Assembly: GCF_005405285.1 (NCBI RefSeq)
Contig: NZ_BJDT01000002.1
Span: forward strand, 124,001-188,000
Length of the DNA stretch: 64,000 nt
From: Weissella sagaensis
GTDB lineage: Bacteria > Bacillota > Bacilli > Lactobacillales > Lactobacillaceae
Reading direction: 5' to 3'
The stretch's first letter is position 1; each line of letters starts with the position of its first letter. The notes under the pieces are model-generated. The model did not search any database. It had not been told where the DNA came from and saw nothing but the letters and a program-made list of their open reading frames with translations. Below, piece after piece: positions 15,294 through 56,834 of the stretch. The position numbers were made by a program, and so were the translations under genes.

Positions 15294-16697
15294 TTATTGA
15301 CATAATCGCCATAGAGATTCTGCGAAAATAGCCATCGTTTTAGTCAAATTAACAACTGGTATATTTTCATTCGCTTGATGGCTGGTCACTTTTAAATCCG
15401 GAAACTGACCGCCAAAAGCAACGCCTCGTTTCAATAAACGTGCATATGACCCACCATTTGATGTCCTAGGTGGTAAATACTGCCCAGTTTGTTTGGCATA
15501 AACATCGGATAAAACTCGTACCAATTCATCTTCAACTGGTACTAGATGTGGCGGCATCCCCGCTTGAACTTGATTTACCGTTGCTTGTAACCCATTTAAA
15601 TGGCGTTGAACTTGTGTAATAACCGCTTGTAAATTAACACCCTGCGGATAACGGAAGTTCAATAAGATTGTTCCCTGACCATGATTACTATAACGCATCA
15701 CCCCAACATTTAACGTTAAATCACCCATTTGTGCATCTTGATAGGCTAAGCCTAATCCATGCGCATATACATCTTGGTGAATGGTGATACCCACAAAATC
15801 AAGAAAAGCACGAGCATCCCCACCAAGGTCATAATGACTCAAAAAATGAGCAAGATAAGTGCCAGCATTTTTCCCATCAGCCGGATAAGCCCCATGCGCC
15901 TGTACACCCAACAACGACAGTTTAACTGTTTGACCAATTTGTTGTGCATCGCCGTTTAAAAAAGGCTGTTGTTGTAAGAAGTTATCAAAATCTTGCACCA
16001 AGTTAACACCGTGTGGTACTTGAATACGAGCTTTAGCTTCACCTGGCACGACATTTGGTCGATTTCCTGATATAAACCGCTCTAAAATATAAGTACCATT
16101 TGAAATACTAGGAAATCGTAATTGTACCGTTTGAAAAGCTTTTTCGCCATTAATAACCGGGAAGGCACCATCAGGCGAAAAGCCCAATGTCGGTTCGCCT
16201 TCTTGTTCAATATAGCGTGGTATATCACGCCAACCATTTTCTTCATCAGTTCCAATAATAAGTCGAATTTTTCGCTTTAATAATCGATTTTGATCAGCTA
16301 GCATCTTAATCGCATAATAAGCTGACATAAGATCTGCTTTCATATCAGCAGCACCCCGGCCAAAGTATAAACCATCTAATATTTCTGGATTAAACGCTGG
16401 TCGTAGCCAACCATCCCCCGCTGGAACAACATCGATATGTGTTAAAATGCCAACTGTTTCAATAGCATCTTGTGGTCCAAATTCAATCCATGTCACCATG
16501 TTATCAACACGCCCATACCTAAACCCATCGCGACTGGCAAACGCCTCCATTTGACTCAAAGCACGAATCATATCAATCCCAAATGGTGTCTGTGGCGTTT
16601 GCGTCTTTACATCCAACACAGAAGGAATCCGAATAATTTGATTTAAATCATTAATTAATGCTTGTTCATACTGTTTTGCTTGTGTCGCCCACGTCAT
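15294..16697 (-). CDS. pepV: M20 family dipeptidase, PepV-like
   Basis: Cytoplasmic zinc metallopeptidase predicted to cleave dipeptides or other short peptides imported by the cell. M20 ligands are visible: H87 and D89 (THIDVVPAGDGW), D118 (GRGAADMK), E152-E153 (GTDEENGW), D176 (SPDGAFPVINGEKA), and a C-terminal histidine in TSHQANEN. The pattern and 467 residues match PepV, although the usual GRGxxDDKGP is GRGAADMKAD here. Ribosome site AGAGGTAGGG precedes ATG 16697. It is a single-gene unit ending at the terminator at 15201-15239. Confidence 0.88.
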   Translation of the reverse strand: MTWATQAKQYEQALINDLNQIIRIPSVLDVKTQTPQTPFGIDMIRALSQMEAFASRDGFRYGRVDNMVTWIEFGPQDAIETVGILTHIDVVPAGDGWLRPAFNPEILDGLYFGRGAADMKADLMSAYYAIKMLADQNRLLKRKIRLIIGTDEENGWRDIPRYIEQEGEPTLGFSPDGAFPVINGEKAFQTVQLRFPSISNGTYILERFISGNRPNVVPGEAKARIQVPHGVNLVQDFDNFLQQQPFLNGDAQQIGQTVKLSLLGVQAHGAYPADGKNAGTYLAHFLSHYDLGGDARAFLDFVGITIHQDVYAHGLGLAYQDAQMGDLTLNVGVMRYSNHGQGTILLNFRYPQGVNLQAVITQVQRHLNGLQATVNQVQAGMPPHLVPVEDELVRVLSDVYAKQTGQYLPPRTSNGGSYARLLKRGVAFGGQFPDLKVTSHQANENIPVVNLTKTMAIFAESLWRLCQ

Positions 16698-16769
16698 TAT
16701 CCCTACCTCTAATTAAATTCTAATAGAGTTAGTGTACCGCGTTTTAACATTGCTGACAATCATTCACAA

Positions 16770-18101
16770 TTAGTGCTGACGCCTATGGTTATAGTAATAA
16801 AATACTGGTAATCCAACCGCAACTAATAGCAAAGAAATAACTGCACCAGTGAAATCATTAATAATCGTTGAAAAAATCACAAAAAGAGCACCGAAAATAG
16901 CAACTAATGGTGTAACTGGGAACAAAGGTGTCTTAAACAAAGTTTTCTCATCTAATGTTGCATCCGTCTTTTTACGACGCAAGATGAAAACACCAATAAA
17001 TGCAGCTGTATAAAAAATCCAAATTGTAAAAATAGCAATATCTGACAAACGATCAACACCATTTGTATAAACAATCGCTAAAGCAATTGTCATACCGGCA
17101 ACAGTCAAAATGGCATTTGTTGGCTCTTGCGTTTTACGTGTTAACTTTGATAAATATTTTGGAAATAAGCCATCCAAAGACATTGCATAGGCCATACGAG
17201 GAAATGACATCATTTTTCCATTCAAGGTCCCTAACATTGAAATAATAATGGCAATACTCAAAGCACGTCCACCTAAATCACCAAAAGCCGAGCGCATAAC
17301 AGCAAATGTTGCATTGTTTTGTAATGCAACGATTTTATCTGATGGTAATGCATGATACACACCAAACGAGACACCTACATAAGCAACTACAATGATACTA
17401 ACGCCACCAACAAGTGATCGTGGCAAATCGCGGCGAGGATTCTTTAATTCACCAGCAATATTAGCCAATAAAATCCAACCATCATAGGCAAATAATGTTG
17501 CCAAAATAGCCATTCCAAATCCACCACCGTGTGTCACAGTATGTGTCACAGTTTGTCCAAGAGCATCAACTTTCCCAAAAAATAGTCCATAAATAATTAA
17601 AATTGCAATGGGAATTAATTTAATTGATGTTGTTAATACTTGAAACCCAGCTGCCACACGATTTTCAAATAAGTTGACAGCTGCAATGAAGGCAACATAT
17701 AAGACAGAAATCCAAGTCGCATATTTTGTTGACACACCTAAAAAGTTAGCTGTTAAAAAGGCAGCATAACCTGCAATTGATGCTATAACTGCTGGTGCAT
17801 AAATAACGACTTGCATCCACCCTGTTAAAAAGCCAGCAACAGGACCATATAAAGATTCAATATAGCTATACAACCCTCCTGTCTTAGGTAAACGTGCGCC
17901 AATTTCTGCAATGGTTAAACCAGCCGCCAGCGTAATAATTCCTCCCGCTAGCCAAGCTAATAACCCTAATGTTGATGAACCAGCTGTTTGTAAAACACCT
18001 GCTTGTTTGAAAAAGATTCCAGATCCAATTACCGTCCCCACGACCAACGATAATCCTGACCAAATACCCATCGATCGTTTTAACTCGACATCCTGCGCCA
18101 T
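16770..18101 (-). CDS. APC-family amino-acid permease (SteT/LAT-like)
   Basis: A 443-residue integral membrane protein with about 12 TM segments. The first carries the APC signature GTVIGSGIFF at residues 22-31, with TGGLYSYIESLYGP after TM2. It belongs to the L-type amino-acid transporter/exchanger branch, which includes the serine/threonine exchanger SteT (YkbA); substrates cannot be read directly. AGGAGAG sits seven bases before ATG 18101. The gene lies behind a leader ORF rich in Asn codons and a terminator (18131-18266). This suggests expression tied to asparagine supply and makes Asn, or an amino acid exchanged with it, a candidate substrate. Confidence 0.85.
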   Translation of the reverse strand: MAQDVELKRSMGIWSGLSLVVGTVIGSGIFFKQAGVLQTAGSSTLGLLAWLAGGIITLAAGLTIAEIGARLPKTGGLYSYIESLYGPVAGFLTGWMQVVIYAPAVIASIAGYAAFLTANFLGVSTKYATWISVLYVAFIAAVNLFENRVAAGFQVLTTSIKLIPIAILIIYGLFFGKVDALGQTVTHTVTHGGGFGMAILATLFAYDGWILLANIAGELKNPRRDLPRSLVGGVSIIVVAYVGVSFGVYHALPSDKIVALQNNATFAVMRSAFGDLGGRALSIAIIISMLGTLNGKMMSFPRMAYAMSLDGLFPKYLSKLTRKTQEPTNAILTVAGMTIALAIVYTNGVDRLSDIAIFTIWIFYTAAFIGVFILRRKKTDATLDEKTLFKTPLFPVTPLVAIFGALFVIFSTIINDFTGAVISLLLVAVGLPVFYYYNHRRQH

Positions 18102-18130
18102 ATAATCACTCTCCTAATATAAAAATAAAC

Positions 18131-18170
18131 AAAAAAAGCAGTCACCCAATTTAGTAATTGGGTGACTGCT
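18131..18170 (-). terminator. Attenuator terminator ahead of the permease gene
   Basis: A 14-bp perfect stem (18137-18150 with 18157-18170) and 6-base loop, followed on the minus strand by seven T. It stands 30 bases before the permease start, so it ends transcription before the gene. The segment 18162-18151 (CCCAATTACTAA), covering 5' arm and loop, can instead pair with TTAGTGATTGGG at 18218-18207 inside the leader ORF: 12 pairs with one G-U. That alternative pairing would dissolve the terminator. With no clear terminator right after gnd, it could also stop gnd read-through. Confidence 0.85.
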
Positions 18171-18194
18171 CGATAAGTACTCACAGTTTAAGCG

Positions 18195-18266
18195 TTACAC
18201 AAAACGCCCAATCACTAATTGTGTTGAGTTCAAGCGATTATTATTATTGTTCATAAATACAATCAT
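18195..18266 (-). CDS. 23-residue leader peptide with five consecutive Asn codons
   Basis: Starts at ATG 18266 after AAGGAG and ends in TAA at 18195. It encodes MIVFM, then five Asn (AAC AAT AAT AAT AAT), then RLNSTQLVIGRFV. Codons 17-20 (TTA GTG ATT GGG) form the antiterminator strand described for 18131-18170. A ribosome stalled on the Asn run would leave that strand free and allow permease transcription; one that reaches the stop codon would cover most of it and let the terminator form. This matches known trp/his-type leaders; function is inferred from layout. I do not recognise the peptide as a named family. Confidence 0.78.
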   Translation of the reverse strand: MIVFMNNNNNRLNSTQLVIGRFV

Positions 18267-18314
18267 TTGTTTAACTCTCCTTAATCAATGTACGGGTTTT
18301 GCTTAACCAAATAA

Positions 18315-18343
18315 ATATTACCATACTTTATATCGCATAACAA
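18315..18343 (-). promoter_or_regulatory. Promoter of the leader-permease transcript
   Basis: On the minus strand -35 TTGTTA (18343-18338), a 17-base spacer and extended -10 TGGTAATAT (TAATAT at 18320-18315). Predicted start near 18308, giving an untranslated leader of about 175 bases up to the terminator. It begins only about 25 bases after the gnd stop codon. Confidence 0.7.
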
Positions 18344-18367
18344 CATAAATAAATATGTGTTTTTATT

Positions 18368-19795
18368 TTATGCTTCGTCATACCATGAATAATGATACAT
18401 TTCACCAGCTGGCTTATCGACACGTTCATACGTATGGGCGCCAAAATAATCACGTTGTGCTTGGATTAAATTAGCTGGCAATACTGCCGAACGATATGAA
18501 TCATAGTAAGCCACCGCTGCTGACAATGACGGCACTGGGACACCTGCAGTGGTGGCTAATGCAATCACACGACGGGCTGCAGCTTGGTACGACTCAGCAA
18601 TTTGTTTAAAGTAAGGTGATAGTAATAAATTGTGTAAATCAGGCGTTTCATCATATGCATCAGTAATGCGTTGCAAGAATTGCGCGCGGATAATTGCACC
18701 AGCACGCCACAATTGTGCTAATTCACCAAATGGTAGTGACCAATCGTAGTAATTTGAAGCCATTCGTAATTGATCAAATCCTTGCGCGTATGACATTACT
18801 TTACCAAAGTACAATGCCTTACGAATATCTTCAATCGTTGCATTTTGATCACCTTGGAATTCATAATTTGGGCCTGATAATACTTCAGCAGCTGCAACAC
18901 GATCAGTTTTCAATGCTGAAATATAGCGTGCATAGACAGATTCTGTAATTAATGATTGTGGTGCCCCCACTTCTAAGGCTGATTGTGATGACCACTTACC
19001 AGTTCCCTTATTACCAGCACGGTCCAAAATCATATCAACCATTGGGTTACCTGACCCCAAGTCATCATCACGCGTTAGAATATCTGCCGTAATTTCAATC
19101 AAGTATGAATCTAATTCACCTGTATTCCATTGCGCAAAAGTATCCGCTAAATGTTGCTTATCTAGTTTAAGAACACGCTTTAAAATATCATATGATTCTG
19201 CAATTAGCTGCATATCGCCATATTCAATCCCATTGTGTACCATTTTCACATAATGACCAGCACCATCAGGCCCAATATAAGTAACTGTTGGCTTGCCATC
19301 TTCAGGCGCTTTTGCTGCAATTTCTTGCAAAATTGGTTCGACTAAATCATAAGCACCCCGCTGACCACCTGGCATCATTGAAGGACCTTGTAAAGCTCCC
19401 AATTCACCACCAGACACTCCCATGCCAATAAAGTTAATCCCTGATTTTTCTAACTTTTTAGAACGACGAATCGTATCTTCAAAGAAAGTGTTACCACCAT
19501 CCAATAAAATATCACCCTCATTTAGATAAGGTAATAATTCTTCAATGACGGCATCAGTTCCGGCACCTGCCTTAACCATTAGCAGAATACGACGTGGCTT
19601 TTGAATTGATGCGACAAAATCTTCAATCGAATAACTAGGGACAAATCCTGAATCAGGATGCTTTGCCACCAAGTCTTCCGTACGCCCAGATGTACGATTA
19701 TAAAGTGCTACCTTATAGCCACGTGATGCGACATTCAAGGCTAAATTACGTCCCATAACAGCTAGTCCTACAACCCCAAATTCGGCTGTTGCCAT
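18368..19795 (-). CDS. gnd: 6-phosphogluconate dehydrogenase, decarboxylating
   Basis: Converts 6-phosphogluconate to ribulose-5-phosphate and CO2 with reduction of NAD(P)+; with zwf it supplies the phosphoketolase pathway. The N-terminal Rossmann motif is [13 protein letters not shown] with NRTSGRTED at residues 33-41, whose N-R-T pattern favours NADP. Active-site residues K184, N188 and E191 are in [17 protein letters not shown]; the C-terminus has the conserved [12 protein letters not shown] segment. Length is 475 residues, of the Gram-positive GntZ/GndA type. The GGGGGG ribosome site is eight bases before ATG 19795. No clear intrinsic terminator follows the gene directly. Confidence 0.97.
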
Positions 19796-56693: not shown

Positions 56694-56834
56694 AATAAAC
56701 CCCGAGTACCACACATAGGCGGCATGTCGGGGTTTGAGTCGATATGCGCCTATCTACTAGAAATTACCACATCACCTTAACGGTAGTTGGTGTCAGATCA
56801 TGGGGTCCAGTCCCTCCCTGACTCTTGATAGGAT
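56694..56834 (-). promoter_or_regulatory. SAM-I (S-box) riboswitch with terminator, upstream of metK
   Basis: On the minus strand the aptamer (56834-56749) reads CCTATCAAGAG, GGAGGGACTGG, CCCATGA, ACCAAC, GTGGTAATTTCTAG and closes with GATAGG. These are the S-box core elements, with P1 formed by CCTATC/GATAGG. The expression platform is AAACCCCGA (56735-56727) with TCGGGGTTT (56705-56697) and a T-rich tail. ATAGGCG on the 3' side of P1 can pair with CGCCTAT in the terminator loop, giving an antiterminator. High SAM should therefore switch metK off. Confidence 0.9.

Follow-up and report, generated by a model that had tools for sequence, protein, structure and literature searches.

The window analysed here is a 64,000-nucleotide stretch of the Weissella sagaensis genome. 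On its reverse strand lies a gene for an APC-superfamily amino-acid permease, preceded by a short Asn-rich reading frame and an intrinsic terminator. From upstream to downstream, the elements of the locus are as follows.

18315-18343, reverse strand: putative promoter TTGTTA-17-TAATAT (-35 at 18343-18338, -10 at 18320-18315), with a TG one base before the -10
18277-18282, reverse strand: AAGGAG, the Shine-Dalgarno sequence of the leader ORF, read from the sequence
18195-18266, reverse strand: leader ORF MIVFMNNNNNRLNSTQLVIGRFV, 23 codons, read from the sequence
18237-18251, reverse strand: control codons 6-10 of the leader, AAC AAT AAT AAT AAT, read from the sequence
18221-18228, reverse strand: strand 1, CTCAACAC, just 3' of the Asn run; pairs with strand 2 in RNAalifold
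18207-18218, reverse strand: strand 2, TTAGTGATTGGG, corresponding to leader codons 17-20; its GATTGGG is invariant in 17 leaders
18190-18209, reverse strand: hairpin 2:2', GGGCGUU/AACGCUU, an alternative partner for the 3' end of strand 2 in the fold of the window
18151-18162, reverse strand: strand 3, CCCAATTACTAA, made up of the 5' arm and the loop of the terminator; pairs with strand 2 as antiterminator by sequence and duplex energies
18131-18169, reverse strand: intrinsic terminator, stem 18169-18156/18151-18138, loop ACTA, T7, from sequence, scan and fold
16770-18101, reverse strand: APC-superfamily amino-acid permease, 443 aa (PF13520, E 3.5e-58), the putatively regulated gene
15294-16697, reverse strand: PepV-type dipeptidase (NF005591 over cut-off)

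The leader ORF runs from an ATG at 18266 to a TAA at 18197-18195, and codon 13 is a sixth Asn codon, beyond the run at codons 6-10. A first-pass annotation of this DNA had placed a leader with an AAGGAG and five consecutive Asn codons at 18266-18195 of the reverse strand, and all of these were read there directly. The terminator, which our terminator scan also listed, has a stem of 14 bp (16 including flanking pairs) and a T7 tract at 18137-18131, 29 bases 5' of the permease ATG at 18101. The 14-bp terminator with T7 described previously is thus real, but the term “GC-rich” was generous, as 7 of the 14 stem pairs are G-C. The 12-bp pairing, including one G-U, that had been noted between strand 2 (18218-18207) and strand 3 (18162-18151) is exact to the base. 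When folded, the leader of the window has a z of -6.2, and none of 200 shuffles was equally stable.

The promoter is the weakest element of the locus. The sequence previously proposed for it is present, but it is a modest match, with 8 of 12 consensus bases; it falls under the threshold of our scan and hence was not listed. This site is the best in a consensus scan in some relatives only, and L005, L006, L011 and L013 differ.

Conservation of the leader among permease orthologues

We searched 28 genomes of the same genus and found an intact permease orthologue in 26 (L001-L026, 63–100% identical); named records of these genes belong to W. hellenica (99% identical), W. bombi, W. paramesenteroides, W. 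thailandensis, W. fangxianensis, W. confusa, W. muntiaci, W. oryzae, W. viridescens, W. uvarum and W. halotolerans. The two genomes left out were G004, in which the permease is in pieces, and G019, which has remote paralogues only. In G004, which is rated 66% complete, the orthologue lies at G004:C18:190351-191547 in several short pieces, one of them with a stop.

The leader was observed upstream of the permease in 17 of the 26 orthologues and is absent from nine. Fifteen of the 17 leaders have an Asn run of 5–7, and the remaining two, from W. muntiaci and W. oryzae, have mixed Asn/Asp runs (DDNNDD and DTNDDN). The 107 run codons of the 17 leaders comprise 78 AAT and 15 AAC (93 Asn), 13 GAT and 1 ACC. 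In nine leaders the run consists of Asn alone; Asp occurs within the run or at its end in six leaders beyond the two mixed ones. All 17 leaders have a purine-rich box 5' of the ORF and, by a fixed rule, a terminator between leader and permease. ACTCA and GATTGGG are invariant across all 17, and in each of them GATTGGG has its pairing partner in the terminator 5' arm. Counted from the leader ATG, GATTGGG lies in frame 2 in 12 leaders, in frame 1 in two and in frame 0 in three. It is therefore the RNA that is conserved, not the end of the peptide. By eye, L001-L013 keep the sequence of hairpin 2:2', and L014-L016 and L018 depart from it.

On a tree of the permeases, the leader falls into two groups, of 13 and 4 rows, and its distribution requires two changes versus 10.1 for shuffled labels; one origin of the leader with later losses is possible. 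A covariance model made from the leaders matched 16 of 397 Lactobacillaceae genomes, all of them Weissella (16 of the 26 Weissella genomes listed, and 1 of 40 genera with strict filters). Because the model was built from the 17 leaders, these 16 matches arise by construction; the informative part of the search is that each genome had a single match, at the permease with the Asn leader, and that there was none outside Weissella.

Mutually exclusive pairings

In the window, the duplex between strand 2 and strand 3 has an energy of -16.1 kcal/mol versus -5.0 ± 1.7 kcal/mol in dinucleotide shuffles, of which none in 1000 was as low. With the whole terminator 5' arm as target, the z was -3.0, and 4 of 500 shuffles were as low. 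Across the 17 leaders, the duplex ranged from -10.9 to -18.0 kcal/mol, with 0–7 of 1000 shuffles as low (0 in nine leaders), and the whole 5' arm gave a z between -2.3 and -4.6 in every leader. For comparison, 22 other hairpins in the window that resemble terminators had a median z of +0.39 and a lowest value of -2.4; the weakest Asn leaders, at z -2.3, do not go beyond this lowest background hairpin. Judged by sequence comparison, the leader and its pairing are not due to chance.

The terminator and the antiterminator share strand 3, and the two pairings are thus mutually exclusive. RNAalifold in addition found a hairpin between strands 1 and 2, formed by CUCAACAC with GUGAUUGGG, which contains one compensatory pair (C-G in 15 leaders, U-A in two). 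In ribosome-free RNA, the probability of this 1:2 hairpin is at most 0.15 in 15 of the 17 leaders (0.00 in the window), 0.60 in L004 and 0.86 in L013. Strand 2 of the window is also able to close on AACGCUU in the fold, and in L014, L016 and L018, three of the four members of the viridescens-uvarum group, the start region of the ribosome-free leader pairs with strand 2. On the leader alignment, RNAalifold returned only 16 pairs, because in L014-L016 and L018 MAFFT had misaligned the 3' arm of the terminator. We therefore judged changes in the terminator and in the 2:3 pairing by eye; the 2:3 core showed one-sided changes and lost pairs, and no change on both sides.

Folding in the presence of a ribosome

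For these folds we took the RNA through to strand 3 and masked the footprint of a ribosome. When the ribosome was stalled at the last codon of the run and the RNA 5' of it was masked too, the antiterminator had a probability of 0.54–1.00 in all 10 leaders tried, out of the 17. When the 5' RNA was left free, the probability was at least 0.61 in 13 of 17 leaders; in L013, L014, L016 and L018, with this RNA free to pair across the ribosome, it was 0.00–0.19.

The first-pass annotation had held that a ribosome at the stop codon covers most of strand 2. Folding bears this out for the window, but it holds in only 8 of the 17 leaders (the window included); in the other nine (L004-L011 and L015) the antiterminator remained unblocked. 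Before strand 3 is made, the 1:2 hairpin has a probability of 0.85–0.98 in seven of these nine, 0.39 in L011 and 0.00 in L015. Ribosome-free RNA of the window that ends before strand 4 folded into the antiterminator with a probability of 0.99, and full-length ribosome-free RNA folded into the terminator in the 10 leaders tried. The predicted folding reproduces a switch only in part, and the anatomy of the leader is clear, unlike its kinetics.

A proposed attenuator and its alternatives

The locus has the ORF, the codon run, the terminator and the antiterminator that form the core anatomy of the trp-type attenuator class. We consider it very probable that the leader is a trp-type, ribosome-mediated transcription attenuator that lies upstream of the permease and responds to how much charged tRNA-Asn is available. 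Transcription would start 5' of the leader, and a ribosome would begin the leader peptide. With ample Asn-tRNA, the ribosome would pass the Asn codons and either cover strand 2 or let the 1:2 hairpin close behind it; with strand 2 so occupied, strand 3 would pair with strand 4, the terminator would form, and transcription would stop before the permease. When Asn-tRNA is scarce, we infer that the ribosome would stall in the Asn run, leaving strand 2 free for the 2:3 pairing, and that polymerase would read on into the permease gene.

Trp-like attenuation was also the reading of the first-pass annotation, which had made it depend on conservation of the leader ORF and of the alternative pairing in relatives. 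Both are kept, together with the codon run and the terminator, in 17 of the 26 orthologues, and the reading continues to offer the best fit. It is strengthened by the 1:2 hairpin, which had been missed before, by the missing Asn synthetases, and by the Ser/Thr, Thr and Ser leaders of related permeases.

Alternatively, the terminator might just end the transcript of gnd, which lies directly upstream in the window, and the small ORF might be a functionless (AAT)n microsatellite, AAT repeats arising easily through slippage. However, gnd lies upstream in 10 of the 17 leader loci, and leader and terminator persist in the other seven, which have no gnd match within 1.5 kb upstream. In L007, L008 and L010 a separate hairpin with a T tract is visible by eye after gnd and before the leader. 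The run, moreover, keeps to the Asn frame, its changes to AAC being synonymous, and the cores of strands 1 and 2 do not vary. With the leader kept where gnd is not found, and with frame and strand cores conserved, we rejected this explanation as scarcely credible. We also rejected nascent-peptide arrest, in which the leader peptide and a small ligand would together stall the ribosome, as in TnaC and the Erm leaders. A C-terminal VIGRF common to 11 of the 17 leaders would suit such a mechanism, but the remaining six have another peptide sequence 3' of the run, in five of them because the ribosome would read strand 2 in a different frame, whereas the run itself and the nucleotides of strand 2 are kept; arrest of this kind is therefore very unlikely.

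The hairpin might also be selected by a trans factor such as an RNA-binding protein in place of the ribosome, and the invariance of ACTCA over all 17 leaders goes beyond what loose pairing requires. Such a factor leaves unexplained the conserved Asn-rich ORF with its ribosome-binding site, as well as the fact that related genes have other control codons, and we find it highly improbable. The runs of W. muntiaci and W. oryzae, and the six further leaders whose run contains or ends in Asp, raise another question, namely whether the leader responds jointly to Asn and Asp, and not just to Asn, upstream of a permease that carries both. Set against this, the run is purely Asn in nine of 17 leaders, and we regard joint sensing as unlikely relative to an attenuator that responds to charged tRNA-Asn.

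The permease and asparagine supply

The best PDB sequence matches of the permease are 9h76 and 6f2g, and no NCBIfam equivalog scored over its cut-off among the 25 matches listed. SteT, a Bacillus homologue, is reportedly a Ser/Thr exchanger. For B. subtilis, PMC10882977 reports L-Asn uptake through AimA, a promiscuous APC transporter, and through BcaP.

None of the 28 Weissella genomes has a recognisable Asn synthetase: AsnA matched none, and AsnB had no match over its cut-off in any of them, one of the genomes being 66% complete. By their extent, the partial AsnB matches look like domains of other amidotransferases. AsnRS is present in all 28 genomes. Weissella should therefore need external Asn, and we infer that the permease imports Asn and perhaps also Asp.

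The PepV-type dipeptidase is adjacent downstream in 11 of the 17 leader loci. In the window, the gap of 72 bp between permease and dipeptidase (16698-16769) has no listed terminator and contains a promoter-like site at 16759-16731; the dipeptidase is possibly read through from the permease.

Leaders on related permeases

Of 20 upstream regions of a sister permease (53–60% identical), 18 contain a Ser/Thr-rich leader (L031-L047 and L049), and one of the two misses, L050, belongs to a remoter paralogue. In W. sagaensis this leader is MNERSLKFNMMTSSNLTVLPNSWVF (L036, G000:C1:163150-163810). Before a third permease, leaders with at least three consecutive Thr, for example TTTTSTT, occur in 18 of 25 loci (L149, L168-L190); the W. 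sagaensis version is MFKSQIKNNNLITTTTSTTVLAGWGI (L149, G000:C1:165701-167059). Outside Weissella, where the homologues were the 65 among the best 80 loci, we found Ser or Ser/Thr leaders at nine, in Lactobacillus and Limosilactobacillus (L096, which is weak, L103, L108, L109, L110, L111, L115, L117 and L139), with 56 lacking one by our rule. A terminator follows six of these nine by rule, and the L. johnsonii leader MKYLHRTNLNTSSSSSSTSSGT is succeeded by a terminator.

In the duplex test, the Ser/Thr leaders had a median z of -1.8 (15 of 18, the other three being without a terminator by rule) and the Thr leaders a median z of -1.6 (18 given of 25). Their 2:3 pairing is less well supported because of these weaker values. 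The Asn leader looks like one member of a set whose control codons follow the gene. We are inclined, on balance, to propose a Lactobacillaceae family of APC-permease attenuators whose control codons would have been swapped among paralogues, with Ser in Lactobacillus and with Ser/Thr, Thr, and Asn or Asn/Asp in Weissella, and would report what is imported; the Asn leader would be its first Asn-specific member. Substrates in this transporter family are hard to assign from sequence, and leader codons offer a direct prediction. Since the related permeases have other leader codons, the prediction of substrate that each leader gives is a testable one.

Relation to known leader systems

Leader attenuation is textbook knowledge for biosynthesis operons, in the form of the trp, his, thr, ilv and pheA leader-peptide attenuators of Proteobacteria. 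Firmicutes mostly use T-boxes, and few leader peptides have been described in them (His, Ile/Leu). The Proteobacterial attenuators also appear in the background of PMC9413887. The Weissella leader is like them in its run of codons for a single amino acid, in its 2:3 and 3:4 pairings with a predicted 1:2 hairpin, and in the terminator before the gene. It differs in having Asn (or Asn/Asp) codons, in preceding a permease instead of a biosynthetic operon, in matching no Rfam leader family, and in a ribosome-free default state that is less clear.

In Staphylococcus aureus, the ilv-leu operon has an Ile/Leu attenuator peptide, and PMC5794164 cites predictions of branched-chain leader attenuation in Lactococcus lactis and streptococci. 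The doubt that had been voiced about leaders of this kind in lactic acid bacteria consequently needs care. Like the Weissella leader, these are cases of leader-peptide attenuation in Firmicutes, lactic acid bacteria included; there, however, the codons are branched-chain and the operon is biosynthetic. His leader peptides have been predicted by the same comparative logic at hisS paralogues in bacilli (PMC2965389) and at his operons of the B. cereus group, Eubacteriales and Erysipelotrichales (PMC9413887), with His codons and synthetase or biosynthesis genes in place of Asn codons and a permease. For Lactobacillales, the available sections of PMC2965389 and PMC9413887 list T-boxes and no attenuators. 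No Asn leader peptide was described in the titles and abstract openings among the matches listed, a scope that takes in few subscription papers and preprints. An Asn-sensing leader on a permease, if true, would add a new sensed amino acid and would extend this kind of control from biosynthesis to import, in organisms that lack a recognisable Asn synthetase.

T-boxes, like the leader proposed here, sense tRNA charging; the Weissella locus has a leader ORF instead. A T-box (RF00230) was rejected at the leader, where no match reached the gathering score and the best had 9.6 bits versus a cut-off of 93, and no other Rfam leader family matched over its gathering score at 18050-18420. Elsewhere in the W. 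sagaensis genome, there are 20 T-box matches at E up to 0.001. No Rfam leader family reached its curated score at six loci whose leaders are of the Ser/Thr or the Thr type, and no T-box or curated riboregulator was found at the nine leaderless Weissella orthologues, at three loci of other genera, or at the 20 scanned of the 65 homologues of other genera. Two other RNA matches were recorded: a RAGATH-18 RNA at L086:724-789, with 47.7 bits versus a gathering score of 44.9, and a SAM riboswitch at 56747-56834 on the reverse strand of the window, with 51.6 bits.
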